Both the position numbers and the translations under genes were made by a program. A stretch of 64,000 nucleotides of DNA from NCBI RefSeq assembly GCF_000280905.1, contig NZ_ALAP01000032.1, positions 124,001 to 188,000 of the forward strand. Reading direction: 5' to 3'. This document shows positions 55,208-59,853 of this stretch, piece after piece (position 1 is the first letter of the stretch; every line of letters starts with the position of its first letter). The notes beneath the pieces were generated by a model. It was not told where the DNA came from. It did no database searches and saw only the letters and a program-made list of their open reading frames with translations. Source of the DNA: Streptomyces sp. AA1529. Its GTDB lineage: Bacteria > Actinomycetota > Actinomycetes > Streptomycetales > Streptomycetaceae.

Positions 55208-56230
55208 GTGGACATCGACATGAGTGCCCTGCGCGGGCTGGTCCGGGAGAAGGAGATCTCGCTGGACCTGCTGGTCGAGGCGATCGAGTCGGCCCTCCTC
55301 ATCGCGTACCACCGCACGGAGGGCAGCAGGCGCGACGCGCGCGTCGAGCTGAACCGCAAGACGGGCCACGTCACGGTGTGGGCCAAGGAGAGTGCCGAGG
55401 AGCTCGAAGAGGGCGCGGAGCCGCGGGAGTTCGACGACACCCCCACCGGATTCGGCCGGATCGCCGCGACGACGGCCAAGCAGGTCATCCTGCAGCGGCT
55501 GCGGGACGCCGAGGAGGAGGTCACCTTCGGCGAGTACGCGGGCCGCGAGGGCGATGTCGTGGCGGGCGTCGTCCAGCAGGGCAAGGACCCCAAGAGCGTG
55601 CTGGTGGACATCGGCAAGCTGGAGGCCATCCTGCCGCCGCAGGAGCAGGTGCCCGGCGAGGAGTACGGGCACGGCACCCGGCTGCGGACCTATGTGGTCC
55701 GGGTGGTCAAGGGTGTGCGCGGTCCTTCGGTGACGCTGTCGCGCACCCATCCCAATCTGGTCAAGAAGCTCTTCGAGCTGGAGGTCCCGGAGATCGCGGA
55801 CGGCTCGGTGGAGATCTCGGCCATCGCCCGCGAGGCGGGCCACCGCACCAAGATCGCCGTACGGTCGGCCCGCTCGGGGCTCAACGCCAAGGGCGCCTGC
55901 ATCGGTCCGATGGGTGGCCGGGTGCGCAACGTGATGGCGGAGCTGCACGGCGAGAAGATCGACATCGTGGACTGGTCCGAGGACCCGGCCGAACTGGTCG
56001 CCAACGCCCTTTCCCCGGCGCGGGTGAGCAAGGTCGAGATCCTCGACCTCGCGGCGCGGTCCGCCCGCGTCACGGTGCCCGACTACCAGCTCTCGCTGGC
56101 GATCGGCAAGGAAGGGCAGAACGCCCGGCTCGCCGCGCGCCTCACGGGCTGGCGCATCGACATCCGCCCGGACACCGCCGACGCGGCGGAGGGCGAACCG
56201 GCTCCGGAGCGTCCGGCCGGACACGGCTGA
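55208..56230 (+). CDS. nusA: Transcription termination/antitermination factor NusA
   Basis: RNA-polymerase-associated factor of 340 residues: an N-terminal domain, S1 (about 130-200), KH1 and KH2 ([40 protein letters not shown]). It lacks the acidic C-terminal repeats of E. coli NusA, as is usual in actinobacteria. The GTG at 55208 is two bases after the rimP stop, with GAGGAGG upstream. Confidence 0.97.
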
Positions 56231-56347
56231 ACCACGACGGGACCGGTCACCCCGCGCGGTCGGGTGTGTACGACGCGGATGGCCGACGAGTAACGGCGCC
56301 CTTACCCCCCAACGGGATTCGGGGCTTCGGGGAGGTAGACTTAAGCA

Positions 56348-56635
56348 GTGTCTGGCCGGACGCGTGGTCGGGCGTGCCCTCAGCGGACCTGTGTCGGCTG
56401 CCGGGAGCGCACCGACAAGCAAGGTCTGCTGCGGCTGGTGCTGATCGGGGGAAGCCTGATCCCCGATCTTCGCGGTAGGCTGCCCGGTCGGGGTGCGTAT
56501 GTGCACTCTGTGCCGTCCTGCCTCGAGCAGGCGGTCCGGCGCCGGGCATTCAACCGGGCCTTCCGGGGTCCGGGTCCGTTCGACCTCGCAGAGCTGCGGG
56601 AGCACGTGGAGCGGAACGCACAGCACGCACCGTAG
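56348..56635 (+). CDS. ylxR: YlxR (DUF448) RNA-binding protein
   Basis: Small nucleoid/RNA-associated protein of 95 residues with the signature CVGCRERTDKQGLLRLV and the loop GRLPGRGAYVH, proposed in Bacillus to affect transcription. The GTG at 56348 has GGGAGG about 12 bases upstream. It lies in the conserved nusA-ylxR-infB order. Confidence 0.92.
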   Translation: MSGRTRGRACPQRTCVGCRERTDKQGLLRLVLIGGSLIPDLRGRLPGRGAYVHSVPSCLEQAVRRRAFNRAFRGPGPFDLAELREHVERNAQHAP

Positions 56636-56641
56636 GAGCCC

Positions 56642-56672
56642 GTACGGAACCTCCGTACCGGGAGAGGTACCT
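56642..56672 (+). promoter_or_regulatory. Short hairpin and palindrome in the infB leader
   Basis: 56642-56648 (GTACGGA) pairs with 56652-56658 around ACC, followed by the self-complementary GAGGTACCTC at 56663-56672. They sit between ylxR and the tandem repeats ahead of infB, and may structure the leader. Confidence 0.5.
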
Positions 56673-56698
56673 CGCGAGTGGGAAGTAGGTCGAGATTG

Positions 56699-56731
56699 CG
56701 ATGAGCACTCGATGAGTACGCGATGAGTACG
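56699..56731 (+). repeat. Three tandem 11-bp units forming nested mini-ORFs before infB
   Basis: CGATGAGCACT (56699-56709) and two exact CGATGAGTACG copies (56710-56720, 56721-56731) abut one another. Each unit holds an ATG. The first two mini-ORFs read MSTR and end at a TGA overlapping the next ATG; the third reads MSTPMHQ and stops at 56746. They lie about 40-55 bases before the infB start. Confidence 0.8.
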
Positions 56732-56787
56732 CCCATGCATCAGTAGCGAAGGTCCGGCGGACGACCCCCCGGGCCGTAAGGAGCGAA

Positions 56788-59700
56788 GTGGCTAAGGTCC
56801 GGGTATACGAACTCGCCAAGGAACTTGGAGTCGAGAGCAAGGTCGTCATGGCCAAACTCCAGGAACTCGGTGAATTCGTCCGTTCGGCGTCCTCGACGAT
56901 CGAGGCGCCGGTAGTCCGCAAATTGACAGACGCGTTCGACGCGGGTTCTGGCTCAGGTGCCAAGAAGTCCGCGGCGAAGCCTGCGGCGCCGAAGAAGGCC
57001 GCCGCCCCGACCCCCGCGCCCAAGCCGGGCGCACCCAAGCCGGGCGGTCCGAAGCCCGGCGCCCCCAAGCCGGGCCCCGCGGCTCCGGCGACCCCTGCGC
57101 CGAGCGCCCCGAGCGCCCCGAGCCCCGCACAGGGCGAGACGGGCGCTGCCGAGGCACCCAAGCCGGGCGCCCCGAAGCCCGGTGGGCCCAAGCCGGGGCC
57201 CGCACAGCCGGCCGCGCCGGCGAAGCCGGACTTCCAGGCACCGCCCGCCGCGCCGGGAGCTCCCAAGCCGGGCCAGGCCCCGAAGCCCGGCCAGGCACCC
57301 AAGCCGGGTCAGGCTCCCAAGCCCGGCGGGCAGGGCCGTCCGCAGGGTGGGCAGGCGCCGAAGCCGGGTCAGGCTCCCAAGCCCGGCGGGCGCACCTCCG
57401 GCCCGCGCCCGGGCAACAACCCCTTCACCTCCGGTGGCTCCACCGGTATGGCGCGTCCCCAGTCGCCGCGCTCCGGCGGTGCTCCCAAGCCGGGTGCTCC
57501 GAAGCCCGGCGCCCCCAAGCCCGGTCAGGGCCAGGGACAGGGCCAGGGCGGAGCCGGCCAGTCCGGTCCGCGTCCGCAGGCTCCGGGTGGCGGTCGCGCC
57601 ACGCCGGGCAACATGCCGCGTCCGCAGGCCCCGCAGGGCGGCGGCCCGCGTCCCGGCGGTGCCGGTGCCGGTGGCAACCGTCCGAACCCGGGCATGATGC
57701 CGCAGCGTCCCGCTGCGGGTCCGCGTCCCGGCCCCGGCCGTGGCGGCCCCGGCGGCGGTGGCCGTCCGGGTGGCGGCGGTCGTCCGGGTGGCGGCGGCGG
57801 TTTCGCCGGTCGTCCCGGTGGCGGCGGTGGCCGTCCGGGCGGTGGCGGCGGTTTCGCCGGTCGTCCCGGTGGCGGCGGCCGCCCCGGTTTCGGTGGCCGT
57901 CCCGGCGGTCCCGGCGGTCGTGGTGGCACCCAGGGCGCGTTCGGCCGTCCCGGCGGTCCGGCCCGTCGCGGTCGCAAGTCGAAGCGGCAGCGGCGCCAGG
58001 AGTACGAGCAGATGCAGGCGCCGTCGGTCGGCGGCGTGATGCTGCCGCGCGGCAAGGGCGAGGTCGTCCGGCTGTCGCGCGGTGCCTCGCTCACGGACTT
58101 CGCGGAGAAGATCAACGCCAACCCGGCGTCGCTGGTCCAGGTGATGTTCAACCTGGGTGAGATGGTCACCGCGACCCAGTCCGTCTCCGACGAGACGCTG
58201 AACCTCCTCGGCGAGGAGATGAACTACGTCGTCCAGATCGTCAGCCCGGAGGAGGAGGACCGCGAGCTTCTCGAGTCCTTCGACATCGAGTTCGGCGAGG
58301 ACGAGGGCGGCGAGACGGCACTCGTGGCGCGTCCCCCGGTGGTGACCGTCATGGGTCACGTCGACCACGGCAAGACGCGGCTGCTGGACGCGATCCGGAA
58401 GACCAACGTCATCGAGGGCGAGGCCGGCGGCATCACCCAGCACATCGGTGCCTACCAGGCGTCGACCGAGGTGAACGACGAAGAGCGCAAGATCACCTTC
58501 ATCGACACCCCCGGTCACGAGGCGTTCACCGCCATGCGTGCCCGCGGTGCCAAGTCGACCGACATCGCGATCCTCGTGGTCGCGGCCAACGACGGCGTGA
58601 TGCCGCAGACGATCGAGGCGCTCAACCACGCCAAGGCGGCCGAGGTGCCGATCGTCGTCGCGGTCAACAAGATCGACGTCGAGGGCGCCGACCCCACCAA
58701 GGTCCGCGGCCAGCTGACCGAGTACGGGCTGGTGGCCGAGGAGTACGGCGGCGACACGATGTTCGTCGACATCTCCGCGCGCCAGGGGCTGAACATCGAG
58801 GAGCTCCTCGAGGCCGTGGTCCTGACCGCGGATGCCTCGCTGGACCTGCGGGCCAACCCCGACCAGGACGCGCAGGGTCTCGCCATCGAGGCCCACCTCG
58901 ACCGCGGCCGTGGCGCCGTGGCCACCGTCCTGGTCCAGCGCGGCACGCTGCGGGTCGGCGAGACCATGGTCGTGGGCGACGCCTACGGCCGGGTGCGCGC
59001 GATGCTCGACGACAAGGGCGAGAACATCAAGGAAGCGGGTCCCTCGACCCCCGTCCTGGTGCTCGGTCTCACCAATGTCCCGGGCGCCGGCGACAACTTC
59101 CTGGTGGTGGACGAGGACCGCACGGCACGGCAGATCGCCGAGAAGCGCGCGGCGCGCGAGCGCAACGCGGCCTTCGCCAAGCGGACCCGCCGCGTCTCCC
59201 TGGAGGACCTGGACAAGGTGCTCAAGGCGGGCGAGGTGCAGCAGCTCAACCTCATCATCAAGGGCGACGCGTCCGGTTCGGTGGAGGCCCTGGAGTCCTC
59301 GCTGCTCCAGCTCGACGTCGGCGAAGAGGTGGACCTGCGCATCCTGCACCGCGGGGTGGGTGCGGTCACCGAGACCGACATCGACCTGGCGACCGGCTCC
59401 GACGCCATCGTGATCGGCTTCAACGTCCGCGCCGAGGGGCGTGCGACCCAGCTGGCCGAGCGCGAGGGTGTGGACGTCCGCTACTACTCGGTGATCTACC
59501 AGGTCATCGAGGAGATCGAAGCGGCGCTCAAGGGCATGCTCAAGCCCGAGTACGAAGAGGTCGAGCTGGGCACGGCGGAGATCCGCGAGGTCTTCCGTTC
59601 GTCCAAGCTGGGCAACATCGCCGGTGTCCTCATCCGCTCCGGCGAGGTGCGCAGGAACACCAAGGCCCGCGTCATCCGGGATGGCAAGGTCGTGGCGGAG

Positions 59701-59853
59701 AACCTCAACATCGAGGGCCTGCGCCGCTTCAAGGACGATGTCACCGAGATCCGCGAAGGCTTCGAGGGCGGTATCAACCTCGGGAACTTCAACGACATCA
59801 AGGTCGACGACGTCATCGCGACGTACGAGATGCGGGAGAAGCCGCGCGGCTGA
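56788..59853 (+). CDS. infB: Translation initiation factor IF-2
   Basis: GTPase of 1021 residues that brings fMet-tRNA to the small subunit and promotes subunit joining. An N-terminal domain ([20 protein letters not shown]) precedes a very long Lys/Pro/Gly/Ala-rich linker (about 55-395), then a GTPase with G1 GHVDHGKT, G3 DTPGHE, G4 NKID, and C-terminal domains including the fMet-binding end. The GTG at 56788 follows AAGGAG. The linker is far longer than in E. coli but common in Streptomyces. The leader carries nested mini-ORFs. Confidence 0.98.
57000..57980 (+). repeat. Low-complexity Pro/Gly/Lys linker in infB
   Basis: Repeated in-frame motifs encode KPGQAP, APKPGG and [11 protein letters not shown], forming a flexible, basic linker between the N-terminal and GTPase domains. 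The DNA is strongly repetitive, so slippage and length variation are expected. Confidence 0.85.

Follow-up and report, generated by a model that had tools for sequence, protein, structure and literature searches.

A chain of three overlapping mini-ORFs and a possible translational attenuator in the infB leader of Streptomyces sp. AA1529 and other Actinomycetes

The ylxR-infB gap of Streptomyces sp. AA1529

The window analysed here is a 64,000-nt stretch of the Streptomyces sp. AA1529 genome (contig NZ_ALAP01000032.1, positions 124,001 to 188,000), and all coordinates are counted within it. The gap between ylxR and infB, which was read directly from the sequence, occupies 56636–56787 (152 nt); infB encodes translation initiation factor IF2 and is presumably the gene under control of the leader. 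The gap and its flanks carry the following features:

56348–56635: ylxR, upstream neighbour of the leader
56639–56661: hairpin directly 3′ of the ylxR stop
56671–56678: self-complementary stretch in the leader, CTCGCGAG
56681–56689, + strand: purine-rich, Shine-Dalgarno (SD)-like stretch before ORF1, GGAAGTAGG
56701–56715, + strand: mini-ORF1, MSTR and stop, ATGAGCACTCGATGA
56712–56726, + strand: mini-ORF2, MSTR and stop, ATGAGTACGCGATGA; start overlaps the ORF1 stop (ATGA)
56723–56746, + strand: mini-ORF3, MSTPMHQ and stop, ATGAGTACGCCCATGCATCAGTAG; start overlaps the ORF2 stop (ATGA)
56751–56757, + strand: P1, GGTCCGG, 5′ arm of a hairpin after the last mini-ORF stop
56768–56775, + strand: P2, CCCGGGCC, 3′ arm, able to pair with P1 or P3
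56778–56783, + strand: infB SD sequence AAGGAG, from sequence reading
56788–59853, + strand: infB, start GTG (ORF call, IF2_N match and N-terminal match)
56796–56803, + strand: P3, GGTCCGGG, in infB codons 3–6, complementary to P2

The mini-ORFs are laid out on three abutting 11-nt units starting at 56699, 56710 and 56721, of which units 2 and 3 are identical and each 82% identical to unit 1, with ATGA joins at 56712 and 56723. In fact, direct reading placed the three chained mini-ORFs, their 11-bp units and their ATGA joins exactly where the earlier note had put them, and the hairpin and the self-complementary stretch that it had reported in the 152-base gap are both present. The pattern ATGA-N7..13-ATGA-N7..13-ATGA occurs at 8 places in the genome, against 1 for the control pattern read backwards, and only at infB are both spacings in frame (11 and 11). 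An extra ORF before ORF1 (GTG, VGSRSRLR) was dropped as a candidate, being missing from nearly all relatives.

A search of Rfam with 55900–57100 gave no match over the gathering score; the two hits below threshold lie 5′ of the leader, and a known RNA family was rejected as its identity. Unusual overall stability was likewise rejected, the 141-nt leader as a whole folding no better than its shuffles (z 0.05). As for the region upstream of ORF1, many Streptomycetaceae read GCACGG/CCGTGC (by eye) where the hairpin at 56639–56661 reads GTACGG/CCGTAC in this genome, and since these changes are paired the hairpin seems to be kept. The sequence GGTACCTCGCGAG at 56666–56678 is nearly invariant in the aligned Streptomycetaceae and was not recognised in other families.

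Conservation of the chain and turnover of its peptides

Among the relatives, 99 of 101 same-genus genomes matched a 301-nt query and all 61 family genomes matched a 201-nt query; the labels Streptomyces and Streptomycetaceae used for these genomes are presumptive and in part taken over from the earlier note. In 29 distinct aligned leaders of Streptomycetaceae (from those 30 of 60 loci whose infB start was located on the one strand searched), there is next to no variation from GGAAGTAGG through GGTCCGG. The 11-nt repeats and the MSTR peptides hardly change, and variation falls mostly in ORF3, where codons 4 and 6 vary and an extra codon may be present in frame, the stop being kept. This near-invariance, third codon positions included, exceeds what the attenuator model set out below needs, and it would suit a stalling nascent peptide or a repeat bound by protein as DNA or RNA, with the ORFs incidental.

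Class-wide, a DNA search with the leader at E ≤ 1 found 170 of 197 genomes, many with weak matches, and a search with the IF2 N-terminus, which is independent of the leader, matched 182 of 197. The class sample consisted of 60 regions placed by leader match, 60 more, and the loci returned by searches. Of the second 60, 56 were placed by the IF2 protein, as a subset of the 182 matching genomes (the 15 genomes with no protein match lie outside the sample), and G272, G321, G330 and G301 by leader match. Chains were scored with ATG or GTG starts, 3–14 codons, a distance of at most 200 nt from infB, and joins that were either NTGA or, like TGATG, had a single base common to stop and start. Chains of three or more tiny ORFs were found in 177 of 180 distinct infB leaders and two in the other three; in regions placed by IF2 protein position alone the count was 54 of 56. 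Among the exceptions, the ORF2 stop of L141 and L255 is a TAG two bases before the next ATG, and in L268 the third start has no in-frame stop within 14 codons (by eye).

Dinucleotide shuffles of 144 leaders, with TTG starts also admitted and NTGA joins only, reached a chain of three in 101 of 7,200 cases (1.4%). In other Actinomycetota classes, 1 of 37 infB leaders reached three (L179, with unrelated ORFs), the leader position being uncertain in five of the 37, either from IF2 matches of 18–21 bits (L165, L171, L185) or from a start codon that was not found (L153, L166). Taken together, these figures argue that a chain of three is not due to chance. In a window control, 127 of 7,281 windows, which include the infB leaders themselves, held three or more. 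Moreover, one spelling of the chain matched at least 119 stretches of a species-genome collection, and among the 80 loci listed from these matches a script found an IF2-like N-terminus directly downstream in 75; a further infB case is L297, whose contig ends within infB, and four (L304, L316, L335, L350) lie elsewhere. Named examples with infB downstream come from Nocardiopsis, Corynebacterium, Terrabacter, Intrasporangium, Kineococcus and Tessaracoccus. A contig titled as a Spirochaetaceae MAG (JAJAYQ010000041.1, L309) also bears an infB leader of the class type, and its title looks wrong.

The architecture was examined in 72 of 73 representatives, which were chosen by shared 8-mers rather than from a tree; L141, with only two chained ORFs, was left out, and the last three ORFs were counted, as chains of four or five in some leaders may contain chance upstream ORFs. 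At all 144 joins the start overlaps the upstream stop in the manner of termination-reinitiation sites, as ATGA (135), GTGA (6), TGATG (2) or TAATG (1). The earlier note had looked to conserved ATGA joins and repeat phase within Streptomyces as a sign of function, and this conservation in fact extends far beyond the genus. The 11-bp repeat is the Streptomycetaceae form, and the units of other families differ in length and sequence. Lengths are narrow (ORF1 of 4 codons in 62/72, ORF2 of 5 codons in 60/72, ORF3 of 5–7 codons in 66/72), and the start is ATG except for GTG in 8 of 216 ORFs. The peptides turn over, with 26, 47 and 72 distinct sequences for ORF1, ORF2 and ORF3; MSTR-like sequence is gone and the overlaps are kept in family f25 (L226: MKLK, MSSLEL, MRSYN) and in f36 (L262: METK, VNGSK, MRPVRE). 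In several leaders of f17 (among L081–L091, L212–L214 and L219–L220) ORF1 is reduced to MSA, and TGATG takes the place of ATGA at its join to ORF2.

The leader ORFs of the 72 representatives thus showed no conserved codon or peptide for stalling or sensing, and a function of the peptide sequence was rejected in view of the turnover. A protein-binding repeat was rejected as well, the 11-nt repeat being confined to Streptomycetaceae among the leaders read. Since outside this family the repeat is lost and frames and overlaps are kept, and since the ORF3 peptide is different in every one of the 72, the repeat or stalling-peptide explanation is disfavoured and we find it hardly credible, even though it accounts for the near-invariance within the family.

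Anti-SD energies of −4.4 kcal/mol or lower were found before ORF1 in 61 of 72 representatives, before ORF2 in 8, before ORF3 in 2 and before infB in all 72. The region before ORF1 (mean −5.74 kcal/mol) is no better than its own shuffles (−5.63), and among the leader sites only the infB SD clearly beats shuffles of itself. ORF2 and ORF3, which usually have no SD-like site, should therefore depend on termination-reinitiation, and this usual absence is consistent with their translation depending on the upstream ORF. As overlaps and lengths are kept, peptides vary and an SD-like site is found mainly at ORF1, selection seems, as far as sequences can tell, to act on the architecture of a chain entered at ORF1 and travelled by reinitiation. 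A chain that outlasts complete peptide turnover is unusual evidence of selection on reading-frame architecture itself.

The tiny ORFs could also report peptidyl-tRNA drop-off, RF2 action at UGA, recycling or slow CGA decoding rather than the IF2 level as such, with the RNA switch described below as the output. The lengths (3–7 codons in 211 of 216 ORFs) and the inner stops, UGA in nearly all joins, would suit such a sensor, and CGA is the last codon at 101 of 144 joins, whereas long open frames have it at 40 of 116 NNA joins. Reading of CGA by inosine could promote release or slippage. CGA is not universal, however, since AAA, CAA, CCA, GCA and TCA occur in its place, and the gene downstream is that of an initiation factor. 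Drop-off in early elongation is driven by RF3 and RRF (PMC10192219); even so, we consider a drop-off or termination sensor improbable.

Alternative pairings between the chain and the infB start

Downstream of the last mini-ORF lie two alternative pairings that the earlier note had not described, P1:P2 and P2:P3, and in the AA1529 leader the second would enclose both the SD and the infB start at 56788. In 71 of 72 representatives a helix begins 0–8 nt past the last mini-ORF stop (L143 has no hairpin), with a mean MFE z of −2.02 against mononucleotide shuffles (z < −1 in 60/72) and with several standard pair types at its positions across representatives. The last stop lies at a median of 43 nt before infB and the hairpin end at a median of 14 nt.

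Pairing was counted in 69 representatives after L143, L146, L148 and L254 (four of the 73, and also of the 180) were left out. P2 fits P3 better than P1, since eight contiguous pairs are formed by P2:P3 in 41 of the 69 and by P1:P2 in 14. P2 was placed by folding, and its register looks wrong by eye in L102, L115, L121, L135, L139, L222 and L224, errors which mostly count against the P2:P3 result. At the Arg wobble position (position 7) P3 pairs with P2 in 50 of 69 leaders, compared with 37.4 ± 3.15 after permutation of P3 (50 was reached in 2 of 5,000 permutations), and P1 pairs with P2 there in 32 of 69; at positions 1–6 the P3:P2 pairs amount to 344 of 414 cells, compared with 329.1 ± 2.8, both tests ignoring the relatedness of the leaders. 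Positions 8 and 9 of P3 are invariant and therefore uninformative on covariation. Concerted changes in P2 and P3 were also seen by eye, GACGCGGACC with GGTCCGCGTC (L131), ACACGGACC with GGTCCGTGT (L138), CGCGGGTC with GACCCGCG (L139), CGCGGGCC with GGCCCGCG (L102, L113, L115) and ATGCGGGCC with GGTCCGCGT (L226, L227, L236), so that P2 and P3 appear to covary in many families. Mutually exclusive hairpins, one of them hiding the gene start, are thus predicted in most representatives.

P2:P3 in this register is missing in L085, L087, L091 and L246, and in family f4, which we take to be Mycobacterium-like, and families f36 and f37, where P2 or P1 seems by eye able to pair with the SD region instead. 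In three Mycobacterium-like leaders (L149, L188, L267) the 3′ hairpin arm ends in CCTC and could pair with GAGG of the infB SD, possibly as a replacement for P2:P3. A candidate helix P0, in which the ORF1/ORF2 join would pair with sequence upstream of ORF1, had stood out on visual inspection and was rejected after a null permutation test (cognate −7.64, permuted −7.67; 1,700 of 3,000 permutations as good).

The chain might serve constitutive ribosome loading, relaying terminating ribosomes towards the infB SD and thereby boosting or steadying IF2 with no sensing involved. Coupling was found in 13 of 14 overlapping pairs tested (PMC6728339), and the hairpin, which spans much of the distance between the last stop and infB, could bring the stop near the SD. 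Loading, however, could be had from one overlapping ORF, and more simply from an ORF that overlaps infB itself; moreover, an SD precedes infB in 72 of 72 leaders and the P2:P3 covariation is left with no explanation, all of which makes this reading unlikely in our view.

Alternatively, ribosomes on the chain could shield the leader from Rho or RNases, with the hairpin as a processing or stability element. Translated uORFs reportedly shape premature, Rho-linked termination in M. tuberculosis (a study cited in PMC13236596). An intrinsic transcription attenuator was rejected, as none of 71 representative hairpins is followed within 8 nt by four or more T, and an intrinsic terminator is accordingly unlikely. 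Three chained ORFs and the P3 pairing would be needless for control by Rho, and we judge Rho or mRNA-decay control very improbable.

The energy needed to open positions −16 to +15 of infB was computed with stretches after the last stop made unavailable. Over the 73 representatives this cost was 13.95 kcal/mol with nothing hidden and 18.71 kcal/mol with the first 10 nt hidden (an increase in 61, a decrease in 5 and a change within 0.5 in 7), compared with 13.61 kcal/mol when nt 11–20 were hidden and 11.16 kcal/mol when the P2 stretch was hidden (71 representatives). infB starts recoded synonymously at random, using GC-rich codon weights of our own choosing, cost 14.84 kcal/mol on average, and the real start cost more in 68 of 73. 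The AA1529 leader reverses the trend, its cost falling from 21.8 to 18.0 kcal/mol with 10 nt hidden, and of two structures inspected, its own and that of L033, both already contain P2:P3 in the fold of the free leader. In Streptomycetaceae (n = 49) the effect was weaker, the cost going up in 28 and down in 10 with 10 nt hidden, and up in 41 and down in 1 with 14 nt hidden. It is hence the class, and not the AA1529 leader, that speaks for the direction of the switch, which would also depend on P1:P2 folding first during transcription.

A possible initiation gauge and its known relatives

We propose that the infB leader is a cis-acting translational attenuator which gauges initiation or reinitiation capacity and gives IF2 negative feedback, a reading whose chances of being correct we consider about even. 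A ribosome would enter at ORF1, terminate after about 4 codons, reinitiate on the overlapping AUG of ORF2, terminate again after about 5 codons and reinitiate on ORF3. The ORF3 stop, 0–8 nt before the hairpin, would be reached only by ribosomes completing all three rounds, and a ribosome resting there would hide P1, leaving P2 free for P3 within infB, so that both the SD and the start codon of infB would be enclosed by P2:P3 (OFF). Where rounds fail, through a shortage of initiation factors or the drop-off of short peptidyl-tRNAs, P1:P2 would form first and infB would be open (ON). As every round needs initiation and IF2, a shortage of IF2 would open infB, and the feedback would keep IF2 at a fixed level. 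We infer that the chain is translated, that the switch runs in this direction and that IF2 or initiation capacity is its signal. The suggestion of the earlier note, that a ribosome stepping along these ORFs could tune IF2 synthesis, would agree with this anatomy (SD-like site at ORF1, hairpin, alternative pairing). Moreover, IF1 and IF2 together reportedly remove peptidyl-tRNAs with short peptides (Karimi 1998), which would link IF2 directly to very short ORFs.

Perhaps, going one step further, the leader is a class-wide reinitiation counter, at which three obligatory stop-start rounds make a steep, peptide-independent gauge for IF2 autoregulation through the RNA switch; this we put forward tentatively, leaning slightly against it. 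If true, it would be a ribosome-mediated control that senses initiation rather than stalling. With a leader of this kind throughout the class, initiation and reinitiation capacity could be read out directly, and it would offer a natural system for studying minimal termination-reinitiation as well as a reporter at hand for compounds acting on initiation.

The literature searched (mostly titles and abstracts, with selected passages) gave no description of this infB leader, no experiment on it and nothing on how Actinomycetes set IF2 levels. A known control of an initiation-factor gene is the AUU autoregulation of E. coli infC. The parts of the proposed device are of known kinds, and their combination, three reinitiations leading to a structural switch on an initiation-factor gene, was not met in that literature.

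Termination-reinitiation at overlapping genes has experimental support in E. coli and Haloferax (PMC6728339), and an AUGA overlap from M. tuberculosis, that of uPPE2-PPE2, supports it as well in assays in M. smegmatis (PMC11260477); small ORFs “coupled” through RTGA have also been described (PMC4633059). The infB leader shares with them the 4-nt or TGATG overlap and a downstream start that often has no SD, and it differs in having two successive overlaps, three minimal ORFs of mostly 3–7 codons and a last ORF that does not overlap the downstream gene. In the same operon (rimP-nusA-infB), the rimP-leader attenuator (PMC2965389) is also a leader regulation; however, it has a terminator motif before rimP, whereas the infB element is internal to the operon, immediately 5′ of infB, and lacks a terminator. 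The cold induction of E. coli infB (PMC6511841) likewise places an initiation-factor gene under translational or operon control, and a term search of that paper found no mention of upstream ORFs.

In its logic the leader also resembles the translational attenuators of the erm type (compare PMC8274638), at which the position of a ribosome on a leader ORF picks between hairpins, one of them hiding the start. The infB leader differs from these in having no conserved peptide or stall motif, and since the defining conserved peptide is absent we class it as translational attenuation and not as the stalling-peptide type. Its signal, in addition, would be several completed reinitiations, and the arrival of the ribosome would switch the gene off.
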